Shown here: one piece after another, positions 2,997-38,251 of the stretch
Position numbering within the stretch: the first letter of the stretch is position 1
How the letters are laid out: each line of letters begins with the position of its first letter
Assembly: GCF_000717175.1 (NCBI RefSeq)
Contig: NZ_JNYD01000003.1
Location: forward strand, 124,001 to 188,000
Source: Pseudonocardia autotrophica
Lineage (GTDB): Bacteria; Actinomycetota; Actinomycetes; Mycobacteriales; Pseudonocardiaceae
DNA length: 64,000 nt
Direction: 5' to 3'
Translations under genes and position numbers: made by a program
Notes under the pieces: model-generated
Told to the model about the DNA's origin: nothing
Database searches by the model: none
Seen by the model: only the letters and a program-made list of their open reading frames with translations

Positions 2997-3036
2997 GTGA
3001 GTGGCGATAGTCGCCATAGCGACTATCGCCACTCAC
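2997..3036. repeat. Dispersed 40-bp palindrome, copy 1 (bidirectional terminator-like)
   Basis: A perfect inverted repeat: 18-base arms GTGAGTGGCGATAGTCGC and its complement around a CATA loop. It lies 7 bases after the stop of the acyl-CoA synthetase and 8 bases before the stop of the convergent SnoaL gene, so it can act as an intrinsic-type terminator for both strands. Related copies lie at 30288-30327 and 38212-38251; all three are followed by AGG, and copies 1 and 3 by AGGGTGG. Confidence 0.9.
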
Positions 3037-28867: not shown

Positions 28868-30001
28868 CTACCGGCCGGTGCGGGAGGGGGCGAGGGCGGC
28901 GAGGGCGGTCATCAGGGAGGTGGCGGGGTCGCCGACCGGGTCGGCCGAGCCGATCCGCTCGACGATCCGGGCTCCGATCTCGGCGGTGCTCGCGCCCATG
29001 GCCGGGCCCGCGAGGGCGGGCAACGTCGCGAGGACCGCAGCCGTCGCACCCTCCACTGCCAGGGCCGCTTCCCGTTCGCCCAGCGCCGCGAGGCACAGGG
29101 CGGCCGAGAGGGCGGCCGCGGCGGGGTTGGCGAGGCCCTTGCCCGCGATGTCCGGGGCCGACCCGTGGACCGGCTCGAACATGCTCGGCGCGGTGCCGAG
29201 CGGGTTGTGGTTCGCGCTGGCCGCGAGGCCCAGCCCGCCCTGCACCGTGGCGCCGAGGTCGCTGATGATGTCGCCGAACAGGTTGTCGGTGACCACCACG
29301 TCGAACCGGCCGGGGTCCAGCGGCAGGTGCTGGCACATCGCGTCGACGTGCACGTAGTCCCGCTCGACGTCCGGGAAGTCCTCGCCCACCCCCGCCACGA
29401 CCTCCTCCCACAGCCGACCGGCGTGGGTGAGGATGTTCGTCTTGTGGCACAGCGTGAACCGCTTCCGGCGGGCGCGCGCCAGCCGGAACCCGAACTCCAC
29501 GATCTCGCGGGTCGCGGGCACGGTGGACACCGAGTGCTGCAGCGCCACCGCCTCGGCGGTGCCGGCGTGGACGGTCTCGCCGCCGCCGGTGTAGAGCCCC
29601 TCGGTGTTCTCCCGCAGGATCACCAGGTCGCAGTTCTCCGGCGTCACGCCCCGCACCGGGGACTGCACGCCGGGGTAGAGCCGCACGGGGCGCACGTTCA
29701 CGCTCTGCCGCAACGCGATCCGCAGCGCGACGATGAGCCCGCGCTCCAGCACACCCGGCGGCACCCGCGGGTCGCCGACGGCGCCGAGCAGGATCGCGTC
29801 GTGCCGGCGCAGCGCCTCGCGGGTCTCGCCGGGCAGGACGATCCCGGTGCGGAGATAGGGCTCGGCGCCCAGGTCGTAGTCCGTGGTCGAGGCGGTGAAG
29901 CCGAACCGGGCGGCCGCCGCGCGGACGCAGTCCACCGCGACGGCCGTGACGTCCGGCCCGATGCCGTCCCCGCCGATGACGGCCAGGTCGTAGCTGCTCA
30001 C
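28868..30001 (-). CDS. Isocitrate/isopropylmalate dehydrogenase family protein (tartrate-dehydrogenase-like)
   Basis: Protein of 377 residues, normal family length. It begins [13 protein letters not shown] and shows [14 protein letters not shown], the metal-binding [15 protein letters not shown], and the NAD-binding [15 protein letters not shown]. The family oxidatively decarboxylates 2-hydroxy acids (isopropylmalate, tartrate, homoisocitrate). Its GTG overlaps the stop of hyuB by 4 bases, so it belongs to the hyuAB operon rather than to leucine synthesis; a substituted malate or tartrate substrate made from the hydantoinase/carboxylase product is plausible (inference). Confidence 0.9.
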
Positions 30002-32178
30002 GCACGACCCCCGGCCAGCGCGAAGTCGCGCCAGTCCTTGCCGCCCACCGGCTCCGTGTCCACCCACAACGCCGTGACGCACTCCGGGCAGACGTAGGCG
30101 ACGGCCGCCAGGTCGGCGTGCACGTCCACCCGCGAGCCGAGGTCCTCCGGTCCGAGGACGACGCGCCCGGCGATCGACTCCCATCCGTCGCCGAGGGGCC
30201 CGAGGACCGTGTCGCAGTGCCGGCACGCCGCGTGCCGCGTCCCCTCGTCGTCGACGAAGGTGACCAGCGAGGCGCCCCAGATCCCTCGTGAGTGGCGATC
30301 ACCGCTACAGCGACCATCGGCACTCACAGGCGCAACCATCCGCGCCCGCCGAGCATCCCGGATCGACGCACGCAGCGAGTCGGTACCCGACTCGTTTACG
30401 GCGCCGTCGGACGAGAGCGCCACGCCGTACAGCCGCGCCGCCGCATCGAGCGACACCGCCCCCGCCGACACGTCCCCGGCGACGAGCGCCGGATCGCGGA
30501 GCAGGGGATCGCCGTAGCCCCCGCCGTTCTGCACGGTGCACTCGAAGACGTCCCCGTGCGCGATCCGCGCGGCGGGGGAGACGCCCGGCAGCACCTGGTG
30601 CTCGCCCGCCAGCTCGGTCAGCGCGCCCACCGGACGTCCCGAACCGAGGTGGTCCAGCACGCCGGAGCCGGTGACCCGTTCGAACCGCGCGCACGAGCCC
30701 GGCAGCCCGCCGAACAGCCCGGTCCGGTTCGGCACCGCGACGCCGTGCGTGCCCAGCACGCCCGTCACCTCGGTGGTGTCGACGGGCGTCAGCGCGAACT
30801 GGATGCCGTTGCCGCCGCGGAAGGTGCCGGCGCCGCCGGAGTCCGCGACCTGGCGGCGCCACAGGTAGAGCAGCGGGTGCCGCATCTCCTGCTGCTCGAC
30901 GTCCGTGGCCCCGCCCGCGAGGATCACCATCGCGCCGCCCGCGTCGACCCCGTCCCGGAACGAGAACGCCGGCCCGCCCCACAGCAGCGAGTCCATGTAC
31001 ATCGACGCGAACGGCTCGCCGTGCTGGTCGATCCCGCCGAACTGGTTGAGCTGCCACGACCCGTCCGACGGGCCGAACGCGTGGTTCTCGTACTTCTCGC
31101 TGAACGACAGCATCTTCGCGATCGCGCCGCCCGCCGAGCATGTGGCCGTCCAGTTCGCGCCGGCCGCGCCGCCGGACACCGGCATCGGCTCGACGGCGGT
31201 GACGCACAGCCCGTCCGGCGCCACGACCTCGACCGGCCGCATCAGCCCGTGGTTCCACGCGATGTCGGACCCGAAGGTGCACAACATGAGCGTGGCGACG
31301 GCGCCGAGCAGGCCGCCGCGCGTCGTCATGCCGTAGGCGGGGGACTGGGGGCTGGAGTCGGAGAAGTCGAAGACGATGCGGTCTTCCGTCTTCGTCATCC
31401 GGCACGGGACCTGCAGCAGCTCGATGTCCCCGTCGGCGGACCCGGCGGGACGGTCGAGGTAGGACGTGTGCTCGTAGACCCCGTCCGGCAGCTCGCGCAG
31501 CATCGCCCGCAGCTCGGCCTCGGAGTTGTCCAGCGTGCGCTCCATCGTCGCCTTGACCTGGGCGGCGCCGTAGCGGTCGCACAGCTCGTGGAAGCGCTGC
31601 TCGGCCACCCGCAGGCCCGCGAGGAAGGCGCGGAAGTCGTTGGCGACCGTGTCGTGCATGCGGGAGTTGAGGACGATCGTGTCCCACAGCTCCTGGTTGA
31701 GCACGTCCCGGCGCACGATCCGGCCCGGCGGGATCCGGATGCCCTCCTGGAACACGTCCGTGGCCGTGGTGCACCAGCTGCCCGGGTCCATGCCGCCCAG
31801 GTCGACCTGGTGCGCCATGCAGCCCAGCCACGCCACGATCTCGCCGTCCCGGAAGACCGGCTTGCAGAACTGGACGTCGTTCTGGTGCATGGCCGCGAGG
31901 TACGGGTCGTTGATGATGAAGACGTCGCCGGGCTCGATGTCGTCGTAGCGGTCGAGGAAGACCTCGATCGCCATGGCGCCCGTGTAGATGGGCGTGAGCA
32001 GGTACGTCCCGATGATCGCCATCTCGCCGGCGGCGGTGTAGATGCCGAAGTTGTAGTCCGTGGCGTGCACGACCGGCGAGCCGGAGACGTGCTCGACCGT
32101 CGTGGCGCCCTCGGAGTTGATGGACCAGAGCTTGTGCCGGATGACCTCGTAGGTGACCGGGTCGACCGCGGTGGTCAT
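29998..32178 (-). CDS. hyuB: Hydantoinase B/oxoprolinase-family subunit with C-terminal cysteine-rich domain and inserted palindrome
   Basis: Protein of 726 residues. Residues 1 to about 615 are HyuB/oxoprolinase B (DPVTYEVIRHKLWSINSEG at the start; GDVFIINDPYLAAMHQNDV; TVQNGGGYGDPLLRDP near the end). From about residue 635 a second domain follows with two cysteine pairs (CRHC and CPEC), resembling the small gamma subunit of acetone/acetophenone carboxylases. Between them lies VSADGRCSGDRHS, encoded by copy 2 of the 40-bp palindrome, inserted in frame. HyuAB-type complexes perform ATP-dependent ring opening or carboxylation. The ATG at 32178 follows GAGGGAGAACAGAC, 30 bases after hyuA; the stop overlaps the next gene. 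Substrate unknown. Confidence 0.9.
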   Translation of the reverse strand: MTTAVDPVTYEVIRHKLWSINSEGATTVEHVSGSPVVHATDYNFGIYTAAGEMAIIGTYLLTPIYTGAMAIEVFLDRYDDIEPGDVFIINDPYLAAMHQNDVQFCKPVFRDGEIVAWLGCMAHQVDLGGMDPGSWCTTATDVFQEGIRIPPGRIVRRDVLNQELWDTIVLNSRMHDTVANDFRAFLAGLRVAEQRFHELCDRYGAAQVKATMERTLDNSEAELRAMLRELPDGVYEHTSYLDRPAGSADGDIELLQVPCRMTKTEDRIVFDFSDSSPQSPAYGMTTRGGLLGAVATLMLCTFGSDIAWNHGLMRPVEVVAPDGLCVTAVEPMPVSGGAAGANWTATCSAGGAIAKMLSFSEKYENHAFGPSDGSWQLNQFGGIDQHGEPFASMYMDSLLWGGPAFSFRDGVDAGGAMVILAGGATDVEQQEMRHPLLYLWRRQVADSGGAGTFRGGNGIQFALTPVDTTEVTGVLGTHGVAVPNRTGLFGGLPGSCARFERVTGSGVLDHLGSGRPVGALTELAGEHQVLPGVSPAARIAHGDVFECTVQNGGGYGDPLLRDPALVAGDVSAGAVSLDAAARLYGVALSSDGAVNESGTDSLRASIRDARRARMVAPVSADGRCSGDRHSRGIWGASLVTFVDDEGTRHAACRHCDTVLGPLGDGWESIAGRVVLGPEDLGSRVDVHADLAAVAYVCPECVTALWVDTEPVGGKDWRDFALAGGRA
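30288..30327. repeat. Dispersed 40-bp palindrome, copy 2, inside hyuB
   Basis: On the + strand the element starts GTGAGTGGCGATCACCGC and ends CGACCATCGGCACTCAC; it matches copies 1 and 3 at both ends but its inner arms have diverged. It lies wholly inside the hyuB coding sequence and is read in frame there, between the core domain and the C-terminal cysteine-rich domain. Confidence 0.85.
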
Positions 32179-32208
32179 GTCTGTTCTCCCTCAGCGGTTC
32201 CGGACGGC

Positions 32209-34335
32209 TCAGCGGTTCCGGATGACGATGTCGCCGGAGCCGTCCACCTCGGCGTCCTGGCCCGGGCCGATCACGACCGTGGTGTCCCGCAGCTCCACGA
32301 TCGCCAACCCCTCGATGTGCAGCCCGTCGTGCAGGTGCTCGGCGCGGTAGACGGTCGCGTCCCGCCACTCGCCGCCCGAGAAGACCTTCCGCAGCCCCGG
32401 CTCCCCGGCGGCCTCGCCCAGCGCTCCGGTGTCGAAGTCCGCCCTGGGCACCGGGCTCGTCGCCACCACGCGGAAGGTGGTGATCTCCACGCCACCCTCG
32501 AGGAACGCGGCGCCCTTGCCGAAGCGGCCCTCGTAGACCTCGACGAACCGCTCGACCATGCCGTTGACGTCGGCCGCGGTGAGCACGTCGGACTCGAACG
32601 GCACCGTGAGCACGTGGATCTGCGCACGGAAGCGGATCTCCACCGAGCGCACGTAGCGGATGGAGTCCTCGGCGGCGCCCGCGGCCACGAGATCCCGACG
32701 GGCACGGGCAGCCAGCTCGTCGAACGTGGCGTTGAGCTCGGCCGGGGGCAGCGCGGACGCGTGGTCCGTGGTGCCGGGCGGGGTCTGCATCGGCTTCGAC
32801 AGCTCCTCGACCATGGTCAGGTCGGAGCAGCCGATGCCGAACGCCGAGTGCACGGACGCGGTGATCGGCACGACGATCTGCGGGCAGCCCAGCTCGGCGC
32901 CGTAGGAGAAGGCGTGCAGCGGGCCCGCGCCGCCGTAGGCGAACACGGCGAAGTCCGTCGGGTCGTAGCCCTGCTCGACGGTCACCTGCCGCACCAGGTC
33001 CGCCATGCGGGCGTCGACGATGGTCTTGATGCCCTCCGCGGCCTGCTCGACCGTGAGCCCGGTGGGCTTCGCGACGTGCTCGTCGATCGCGCCACGGGCC
33101 TTGTCGACGTCGAGGGTCAGCCTGCCGCCCAGGAAGTTGTCCGGGTTGAGGTAGCCGAGTACGAGGTCGGCGTCGGCGACCGTGGGCAGGGTGCCACCGC
33201 GGCCGTAGCAGGCGGGGCCGGGGCGCGCGCCCGCCGACTCGGGACCGACCTGCAGCACGCCGCCCCGCACCGAGGCGATCGAGCCCGCGCCCGCGCCGAT
33301 CGCCCGCACCGCCACCGACGGCAGGGCGAGCTCGTCGCGCCCGATCAGGGTGGTGTTGGACATGACCGGGCGCCCGTCGAGCACCAGGCCGACGTCGAAG
33401 CTGGTGCCGCCCATGTCGGTGGTCACCACGTTGCGGTGGCCGGAGCGTGCCCCGAGGAACTGCGAGGCGACGACGCCACCGACCGGGCCGGACATCACCG
33501 TCGCGGCTGCGCGCTTCTCCACCTCGGTGAAGGTCGCGAGGCCACCGTTGGACTGCATGAGCAGCGGATCGGCGCGGAGCCCGGCCTTCGAGAGCGTCGA
33601 CTCGAAGGAGTCGAGCGAGGTCTTGAGGACGGGGCGCAGGCTGGCGTTCACCGCCGTCGTCAGCGTGCGTTCGTACTCGCCGATGCGCGGCAGGAACTCG
33701 CTCGACAGCGTCACCGAAGCGCCCGGCACCTCCTCGGCGATGATCTCCGCGACGCGGCGCTCGTGGGCCCCGTTCGCGAAGGACCAGAGCAGCGAGACCG
33801 CGAAGACCTCGGCGCCCGCCGCACGGAGCTCGGCGAGCGCGCGCCGGACGTCCGCCTCGTCCAGCGGGCAGACCACGCGCCCGGCGTAGTCGATCCGCTC
33901 GGTGACCTCGGCCGTCAGCCGGCGGGGGACGGCCGCGGGCTGCTTGACGAGCGTGCGGAAGCGCTTGACCTCCTCCTCGTCCAGCCCGATCCCCTTGAAC
34001 CCCCGCATGATCGTGAGGGTGTCGCCGAAGCCGCGGGTCTGGATGAGGCCCACCTTCTTCGTGCGGCCCTCCAGCATCGCGTTGGTGGCGATGGTGGTGC
34101 CGTGGGCGAACACCTCCACGGCCCCGAGCAGCTCCGCGAGCGGGACGCCGCGCTCCTCGGCGGCGAGCTCGAGGGTGTCCAGGACGCCCTGGGCCGGGTT
34201 GTCCGGCACGGTGGAGGACTTGTAGCGGCCGACCCGGCCGGCTCTGCCGTCCGGACGGGCTCCGCCGTCGGCGTCGATCACCACCGTGTCGGTGAAGGTG
34301 CCGCCGATGTCGGAGGCGACGTAGTAGGTGGGCAT
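32209..34335 (-). CDS. hyuA: Hydantoinase A/oxoprolinase-family ATP-binding subunit
   Basis: Protein of 708 residues. The start YYVASDIGGTFTDTVVID is the actin-like ATPase phosphate loop of HyuA; further motifs are VFAHGTTIATNAMLEGRTKK, TVMSGPVGGVVAS, TTDMGGTSFDVGLV and VFAYGGAGPLHA, in family order. It supplies ATP-driven phosphorylation for hydantoin, 5-oxoproline or ketone substrates together with HyuB. It follows a GntR gene by 1 base (stop 34337, start 34335) and precedes hyuB by 30 bases. The island lacks a racemase or N-carbamoylase, arguing against classical hydantoin use; a ketone-carboxylase-like role is possible. Confidence 0.93.
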   Translation of the reverse strand: MPTYYVASDIGGTFTDTVVIDADGGARPDGRAGRVGRYKSSTVPDNPAQGVLDTLELAAEERGVPLAELLGAVEVFAHGTTIATNAMLEGRTKKVGLIQTRGFGDTLTIMRGFKGIGLDEEEVKRFRTLVKQPAAVPRRLTAEVTERIDYAGRVVCPLDEADVRRALAELRAAGAEVFAVSLLWSFANGAHERRVAEIIAEEVPGASVTLSSEFLPRIGEYERTLTTAVNASLRPVLKTSLDSFESTLSKAGLRADPLLMQSNGGLATFTEVEKRAAATVMSGPVGGVVASQFLGARSGHRNVVTTDMGGTSFDVGLVLDGRPVMSNTTLIGRDELALPSVAVRAIGAGAGSIASVRGGVLQVGPESAGARPGPACYGRGGTLPTVADADLVLGYLNPDNFLGGRLTLDVDKARGAIDEHVAKPTGLTVEQAAEGIKTIVDARMADLVRQVTVEQGYDPTDFAVFAYGGAGPLHAFSYGAELGCPQIVVPITASVHSAFGIGCSDLTMVEELSKPMQTPPGTTDHASALPPAELNATFDELAARARRDLVAAGAAEDSIRYVRSVEIRFRAQIHVLTVPFESDVLTAADVNGMVERFVEVYEGRFGKGAAFLEGGVEITTFRVVATSPVPRADFDTGALGEAAGEPGLRKVFSGGEWRDATVYRAEHLHDGLHIEGLAIVELRDTTVVIGPGQDAEVDGSGDIVIRNR

Positions 34336-38211: not shown

Positions 38212-38251
38212 GTGAGTGGCGATAGTCGCCATAGCAGCTATCGCCACTCAC
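38212..38251. repeat. Dispersed 40-bp palindrome, copy 3 (bidirectional terminator-like)
   Basis: Arms GTGAGTGGCGATAGTCGC / AGCTATCGCCACTCAC around CATAGC; one transposed pair distinguishes it from copy 1. It starts 6 bases after the FadR-like gene stop and its last bases include the stop codon of the convergent LLM gene. The same AGGGTGG flank as copy 1 follows it. Confidence 0.9.

Follow-up and report, generated by a model that had tools for sequence, protein, structure and literature searches.

The hyuB-type gene of Pseudonocardia autotrophica carries, where its two protein domains meet, a 40-bp palindromic sequence, and the question is how this sequence came to be read as protein. An initial annotation of the window, by which we mean the whole stretch of 64,000 nucleotides that was analysed, regarded the palindrome as a possible mark of a fusion between hyuB and a gene for a gamma-type carboxylase subunit. 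The sequence and the open reading frame bear out that the exact 40-mer lies inside hyuB and is read in frame, with both flanks in frame. The features of the locus are listed in Table 1.

Table 1. Features of the hyuB locus and the three copies of the palindromic element in the window.
Feature	Position in the window	Strand	Remarks
40-bp palindromic element GTGAGTG-N26-CACTCAC	30288..30327	.	inside hyuB; minus-strand reading VSADGRCSGDRHS(R), residues 618-631
GA dinucleotide, 3' neighbour of the element on the sense strand	30286..30287	-	extends the unit to 42 nt = 14 codons
hyuB-type gene, hydantoinase B / oxoprolinase family	29998..32178	-	726 aa, C-terminal four-cysteine domain
Hydantoinase_B core, PF02538	30505..32163	-	residues 6-558
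HyuB C-terminal domain	30001..30285	-	residues 632-726, CxxC...CxxC; probably acetone carboxylase gamma-like fold
hyuA-type partner gene	32209..34335	-	same strand, upstream of hyuB
3-isopropylmalate/tartrate dehydrogenase-type gene	28868..30001	-	4-nt overlap with the hyuB stop
Second copy of the element	2997..3036	.	convergent genes; one stop 6 nt before, the other 8 nt away
Third copy of the element	38212..38251	.	convergent genes; the minus-strand gene uses the element's TGA as stop codon

The hyuB copy is translated as V-S-A-D-G-R-C-S-G-D-R-H-S(-R); the frame is open on both sides, and CRHC and CPEC motifs follow downstream. As a palindrome this copy is imperfect, with 14 of the 18 possible stem pairs. 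Since 40 is not divisible by three, the hyuB frame is kept only because the dinucleotide GA travels along with the element or because the exchange was something other than a plain insertion. GA follows the element in all four exact in-gene copies among 50 copies that were placed relative to genes, and also in most of the 16 tandem-gene copies (G 93%, A 75%). The pattern GTGAGTG-N(20-34)-CACTCAC matches three times in the window and not at all in 100 shuffles; Rfam gave no match within the window. Both other copies in the window lie between convergent genes, in agreement with the initial annotation. The third has no counterpart in G030, a sister genome in which the two flanking genes overlap each other.

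The genome to which the window belongs (G000, 8.0 Mb) contains 122 exact copies of GTGAGTG-N26-CACTCAC and none of a reversed control pattern. The count is 122 whether lengths of 34-48 bp or 40 bp alone are allowed, which indicates a fixed length of 40 bp. Of 397 genomes drawn from the order, 36 contained at least one copy, with a maximum of 191; the single copies that are frequent among these 36 genomes may be chance hits, and the reversed control pattern was found in five other entries of the draw, each time at most once. Within the genus the element is present in 36 of 62 genomes and reaches 492 copies. Named holders among the matches listed are Pseudonocardia, Amycolatopsis, Saccharopolyspora, Kibdelosporangium, Lentzea, Prauserella and Rhodococcus; lone matches in unrelated phyla, again among the matches listed, were taken for chance.

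The structure of the element was analysed with an alignment of 112 copies, 100 of them distinct, from four species: 50 of the 122 copies of G000, 24 of 257 from P. acaciae (G060), 23 of 89 from G061 and 15 of 492 from G010. In this alignment the stem is paired in 94.4% of the cells. The outer seven pairs are invariant, because the search pattern demanded these 7-bp ends, and the inner eleven pairs vary but co-vary. Changes on both sides of a pair occurred in 327 cells, compared with 118.1 +/- 8.5 in shuffles; kinship among the copies inflates counts of this kind. Another measure, the number of pairs with any double change, gave 11 versus 9.8 and was reached by 42 of 500 shuffles. The core sequences are species-specific across the holders. 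The palindrome is a REP-like dispersed 40-bp family of the Pseudonocardiaceae, with copies in Rhodococcus.

A transposase of the Y1/RAYT type (PF01797) was found in 5 of the 62 genomes of the genus; it is absent from the element-rich genomes G000, G010, G060 and G023, and G020 is the sole element-rich genome that has it. Such a transposase was rejected as the mover of the palindrome, since its presence is unlinked to copy number across the 62 genomes. The 50 flanks, read by eye, contain no consistent target-site duplication, and a near-clean empty site was seen only once, at C8:77965.

For the analysis of gene context, genes were called with a purpose-written codon-usage predictor, which called 92% of the window coding, and 50 of the 122 copies of G000, taken in contig order, were placed. 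Twenty-eight lie between convergent genes, 16 between tandem genes, two between divergent genes and four inside genes. In total 43 of the 50 start within -8 to +12 nt of a gene 3' end, compared with 1.1% of 20,000 random places. Copies at -4 supply the stop codon with their own G-TGA-GTG. Placement at gene ends was also found for 16 of 24 copies of G060, 20 of 23 of G061 (one of them also called inside a gene) and 7 of 15 of G010, and for 40 of 77 copies in loci from mixed species, where 77 of 92 copies could be placed and the remainder lay too close to the locus end.

Nine comparisons with the sister genomes G030 and G066 at eight intergenic sites, judged by eye, revealed a different hairpin at the corresponding gene end in five cases (G030 at C8:107918, C8:99607 and C3:287365; G066 at C8:4513 and C8:8863). 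No hairpin was seen by eye in the others, all in G030: C3:162212, C8:77965, C8:8863 and C3:270213 (short tandem repeats there). A gene-end structure that is kept while its sequence changes is expected for terminators or 3'-end protectors. Most copies form a hairpin right behind stop codons. Judged from their position, these hairpins most likely act in both directions, either as terminators or as protectors of mRNA 3' ends; since the copies lack a U-tract (the 3' flank consensus is GACC or GGGG), we infer this role rather than read it from the sequence.

A search of the genome for further copies inside genes, suggested by the initial annotation, was successful. The four in-gene copies among the 50 placed are located in hyuB, in ureF (PF01730), in a molybdopterin oxidoreductase-flavodoxin fusion and in a gene without Pfam match, which from its appearance we take to be anti-sigma-like. 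In the oxidoreductase fusion the 14 codons (651-664 of a partial ORF) follow the Molydop_binding domain (532-643) and precede the Flavodoxin domain (752-882). Outside the 50, G000 has a copy with one mismatch in an NRPS gene, between a carrier domain and a condensation domain that scored below its cut-off in the cut piece scanned, and one further copy in a CoxM-type gene. P. acaciae contains two in-gene copies, one that lies 9 residues from the C-terminus of a FAD_binding_2 protein and one in a ChsH2-like OB-fold protein. Single ones are present in a Lentzea acyltransferase, in CoxM of P. kunmingensis, G018 and G022, and in ureF of G073; among 15 of the 492 copies of G010 there was none. Two copies of G061 that were called inside by rule are gene ends that read into the element (phase 1) and were excluded from the interior count.

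All interior copies found, in G000 and six other species, are translated in a single frame (phase 0) as V-S-x9-H-S-R. This single phase is partly forced, because all of the 112 aligned copies have a stop in frame 2 and 84 of them also have one in frame 3; an open frame 1 was seen in 81. In G000 the in-gene hairpins have a mean energy of -19 kcal/mol versus -32 kcal/mol for the others (p = 0.0015, 4 versus 46 copies). The data from other species speak against selection for weaker hairpins inside genes: four in-gene hairpins, from P. acaciae, Lentzea and P. kunmingensis, do not follow the trend (-29 to -34 kcal/mol), although that of G073 is weak, with -18 kcal/mol. Interior copies would be found only where the frame yields V-S-x9-H-S-R and the protein tolerates an altered linker or loop, and the peptide is probably simply tolerated.

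In a structure model of HyuB (mean pLDDT 84.5, 55 sequences) the element residues form a loop between a helix (596-613) and a strand (632-634), and thus lie at the junction between the core and the C-terminal domain, where the initial annotation had located them. The mean pLDDT of the block 621-630 is 66, compared with 90 and 91 in the neighbouring blocks. The proposed likeness of the C-terminal domain to a carboxylase gamma subunit held for the fold and failed at the level of sequence profiles. A Foldseek search with HyuB retrieved the acetone carboxylase gamma chains 5svc_C and 5m45_C over 94 columns, with an rmsd of 2.5-2.6 and E values of about 0.05; the result table gives no aligned range, and the match was assigned to the C-terminal domain by inference. 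By sequence, this domain has no Pfam match above the cut-off and no match to a gamma-subunit PDB profile at E 0.1. According to the model, the domain probably folds like the acetone carboxylase gamma subunit. Its cysteines C655, C697 and C700 are invariant in the 55-sequence alignment, down to 46% identity. HyuB, acetophenone carboxylase ApcD and the acetone carboxylase alpha subunit (5l9w, 5m45, 5svb) share the same sequence family and core fold; unlike ApcD and the alpha subunit, the HyuB of the window contains the gamma-like domain in the same chain.

To follow the linker itself, 120 listed HyuB homologues were all aligned, a few of which are fragments without the C-terminal domain. The motif V-S-x9-H-S-R is present in two of the 120, the protein of the window and the 94% identical metagenome protein P0002. 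The element-sized gap that the initial annotation had envisaged did not appear. Instead, the homologues have unrelated linkers of similar length, 16-44 residues with a median of 20 in the 98 of 120 that could be measured, which contradicts the insertion or fusion reading of that annotation; the linker of the window protein has 20 residues and that of Pseudonocardia sp. RS11V-5 has 17. A second genome of the same species, G065, is identical at the hyuB site. The HyuB proteins of G030, the nearest relative with the gene, and of G066 are 93% and 92% identical to the window protein. Both sisters have the linker GEPTGIWG, common to Amycolatopsis and others, at the place of RHSRGIWG in the window. 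From the same ATG to the same ATCTGG we counted 54 nt in the window and 45 nt in G030 and G066. These comparisons show that the palindrome replaced all or part of the linker that originally joined the HyuB core to the gamma-like C-terminal domain, with a gain of 9 nt relative to both sisters, and that it did so in the lineage to which this species and one near metagenome relative belong.

The reading that we hold with good confidence is that of a REP-like dispersed hairpin family that sits mostly behind stop codons, with a minority of copies in frame in tolerant linkers, the hyuB copy having replaced an older linker. Compared with G066, the six in-gene sites of G000 differ by +9 nt in hyuB, +3 nt in the flavoprotein, 0 in ureF, 0 in the Pfam-less gene, +6 nt in the NRPS gene and +9 nt in CoxM. 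The ureF segment of G066 contains a relic of the element (alignment p = 0.0003, the lowest value attainable with 3000 shuffles; E = 0.0003 with nhmmer). Since the sister thus still carries the element in decayed form, the ureF event is older. The other seven sister segments, with hand-chosen borders, gave relic p values of 0.015 to 0.15, unconvincing after eight tests; the lowest belong to the flavoprotein and the Pfam-less gene, both of G066. When 719 kb of sequence from G030 and G066 were searched with nhmmer, ureF remained the only relic, and one more match had E = 4.

The strongest alternative is a clean 42-bp insertion whose neighbouring old linker was lost later under selection for linker length, so that the result only looks like a replacement. 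Insertion does occur, as follows from a net +40 nt relative to G030 at the intergenic site C8:77965 and from the CoxM linkers, which measure 52, 52 and 49 residues in the element-bearing P. kunmingensis, G018 and G022 versus 43 in four empty relatives (+18 to +27 nt), as if part of the insert were still visible; what appears as replacement may thus be insertion followed by loss. The small length differences at all six in-gene sites of G000 speak against this course of events, and no intermediate was seen. We regard it as a real possibility, somewhat short of an even chance.

Replacement at the same place may also have occurred repeatedly. The ChsH2-like OB-fold protein has V-S-x9-H-S-R in 13 of 120 homologues, always 2-6 residues from a conserved D-I-x-C/Y-F motif; several of the element cores are unlike each other, and one holder is a Saccharopolyspora. 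In CoxM of P. kunmingensis and G018 the element sits at the identical nucleotide, with flanks identical at 55/60 and 54/60 positions and cores at 10/26. In CoxM, G011 has a decayed relative and G022 another copy nearby. The position in the CoxM linker that G000 fills with its own type is occupied in G030 and G066 by GTGCGCG-N26-CGCGCAC (14 and 16 of 18 pairs). Linkers like those of CoxM and the OB-fold protein may be hot spots with a high tolerance; the alternative is that cores are swapped in place. We tentatively propose, as the less probable extension, that the palindromes are exchangeable cassettes in which, once a gene end or a protein linker holds one, the 26-bp core or the whole hairpin is overwritten by the current core of the species while the 7-bp ends or the flanks stay. 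If so, the linkers of HyuB, UreF, CoxM and the ChsH2-like OB-fold protein would have been repeatedly re-coded by genome-wide DNA homogenisation.

It is unlikely that the element is a binding site of a chromosome-organising or regulatory protein rather than a hairpin element. Fixed 7-bp ends at a fixed spacing resemble half-sites, but the inner pairs differ between species and nevertheless co-vary, and the unrelated hairpins at corresponding sister gene ends in five of nine comparisons indicate that structure, not sequence, is kept.

The proposal of the initial annotation, that hyuB was fused with an originally separate gene of the gamma type, has very little left in its favour. The element does lie where the two domains meet, the C-terminal one probably folds like a subunit that is separate in acetone carboxylase, and a stand-alone protein of 109 aa consisting of this domain (P0121) is recorded for Saccharopolyspora erythraea NRRL 2338. 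However, 53 of the 55 aligned sequences, with identities down to 46%, have both domains and no element motif. Such homologues come from Amycolatopsis, Saccharopolyspora, Streptomyces, Solirubrobacteraceae, Acidobacteriota and Kyrpidia, and they rule out a fusion by the element, whose motif is confined to the window protein and its metagenome relative. Short relatives of the lone domain number only 3 among 5 candidates, and a fused form of 723 aa is also listed for S. erythraea; P0121 could stem from gene splitting, from a frameshift or from a fragmentary annotation. The two-domain HyuB is far older than, and unrelated to, the palindrome event. From the element-free fused homologues, the ordinary linker length and a difference of 9 rather than 40 nt to the sisters it follows that the palindrome replaced a linker and made no fusion. 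That the 40-mer is ancestral coding sequence and a palindrome by chance, which would fit the ordinary linker length, is refuted by its match to a pattern with 122 copies where 0 are expected and by the unrelated linkers of sisters with 92-93% identical proteins.

Protein-coding palindromes are known mainly, as far as covered here, from Rickettsia, Wolbachia, nematomorph mitochondria and a minority of REPs. Hairpin terminators of actinobacteria include the TRIT class of Mycobacterium tuberculosis. Like these terminators, the element forms a stable hairpin right behind stop codons; unlike them it has no U-tract, has fixed ends and is a dispersed family, a comparison made here by sequence and position. 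REPs are described, in the parts of Di Nocera et al. 2013 (PMC3733652) used here, as high-copy palindromes of 20-40 bp that are tagged by GTAG/CGTC and associated with RAYT transposases. They are mostly found behind convergent or tandem genes, their termini supply stop codons, and a minority lies inside ORFs (PMC3733652). The present family resembles them in size (40 bp), in number (122 copies) and in the position of 43 of 50 placed copies near gene 3' ends. One site with different palindromes also has a parallel, since different REPs occupy about the same recB site in two Xanthomonas species according to the same parts of that source (PMC3733652). In contrast to REPs, the element has a symmetric build, its GTGAGTG and CACTCAC ends being paired with each other, and its length is fixed at 40 bp; neither GTAG nor CGTC occurs in the flank consensus of the 44 convergent and tandem copies, which is C-rich at one end of the element and either G-rich or GACC at the opposite end; the PF01797 transposase was not found in G000; and in-gene copies stand mostly in place of a linker.

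The comparison with Rickettsia palindromic elements made in the initial annotation is valid insofar as a palindrome is read in frame inside otherwise conserved proteins, as in the portions consulted of PMC2229807 and PMC10969869. It does not extend to the unit, which has 40 bp, or 42 nt with GA, compared with 105-146 bp (PMC2229807) or about 150 bp (PMC10969869) as given in these portions. The host is a high-GC actinobacterium, and the net gain in length is small in hyuB (+9 nt to both sisters) and at the other sites of G000 (0 to +9 nt), while the CoxM genes of three other species have gained +18 to +27 nt. In size, number and location the family resembles REPs, and in its in-frame copies the Rickettsia elements, but it lacks defining features of both; we file it as a variant among the small dispersed palindromes. 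The literature listings searched contained no account of the GTGAGTG palindrome, nor of palindromes read as protein in Pseudonocardiaceae, the mostly open-access coverage making this weak evidence of absence, and the main text of a REP survey (PMC12306157) names neither Pseudonocardia nor Amycolatopsis. An actinobacterial family with many comparable species offers a way to ask how repeats spread without a known transposase, and the same linkers with different palindromes, together with copies in place of linkers, a way to study how repeats rewrite protein linkers. The hyuB case also calls for caution: a repeat that lies where two domains meet should not be taken as evidence that they were fused.

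Several further observations were made at this locus and in the related genomes. The window contains a gene row of the type hyuA-hyuB-isopropylmalate/tartrate dehydrogenase (28868-34335); the models closest to the HyuA/HyuB pair are those of caprolactamase and acetophenone carboxylase, with scores far below the cut-offs. A second short perfect palindrome (GAGTCGGTACCCGACTC) is located inside hyuB at 30377-30396, about 50 bp from the element, and is lacking in the G030 orthologue. At a gene end where G000 carries the palindrome, G030 has a short tandem repeat (CCGCGAGTCGCGCTGTGGGCTT; C33, 103355-103462). A further hairpin type, GAACGGCGCTC...GAGCGCCGTTC with variants, was seen at gene ends of G000 C1, G030 C77 and G066 C80. 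Palindromes of the type GTGCGCG...CGCGCAC occupy gene ends in G000 (C1, joined piece L077-L087, 218006-218045) and G030 (C77, 4563-4600), and the same type is read in frame in CoxM of G030 (L359) and G066 (L364).
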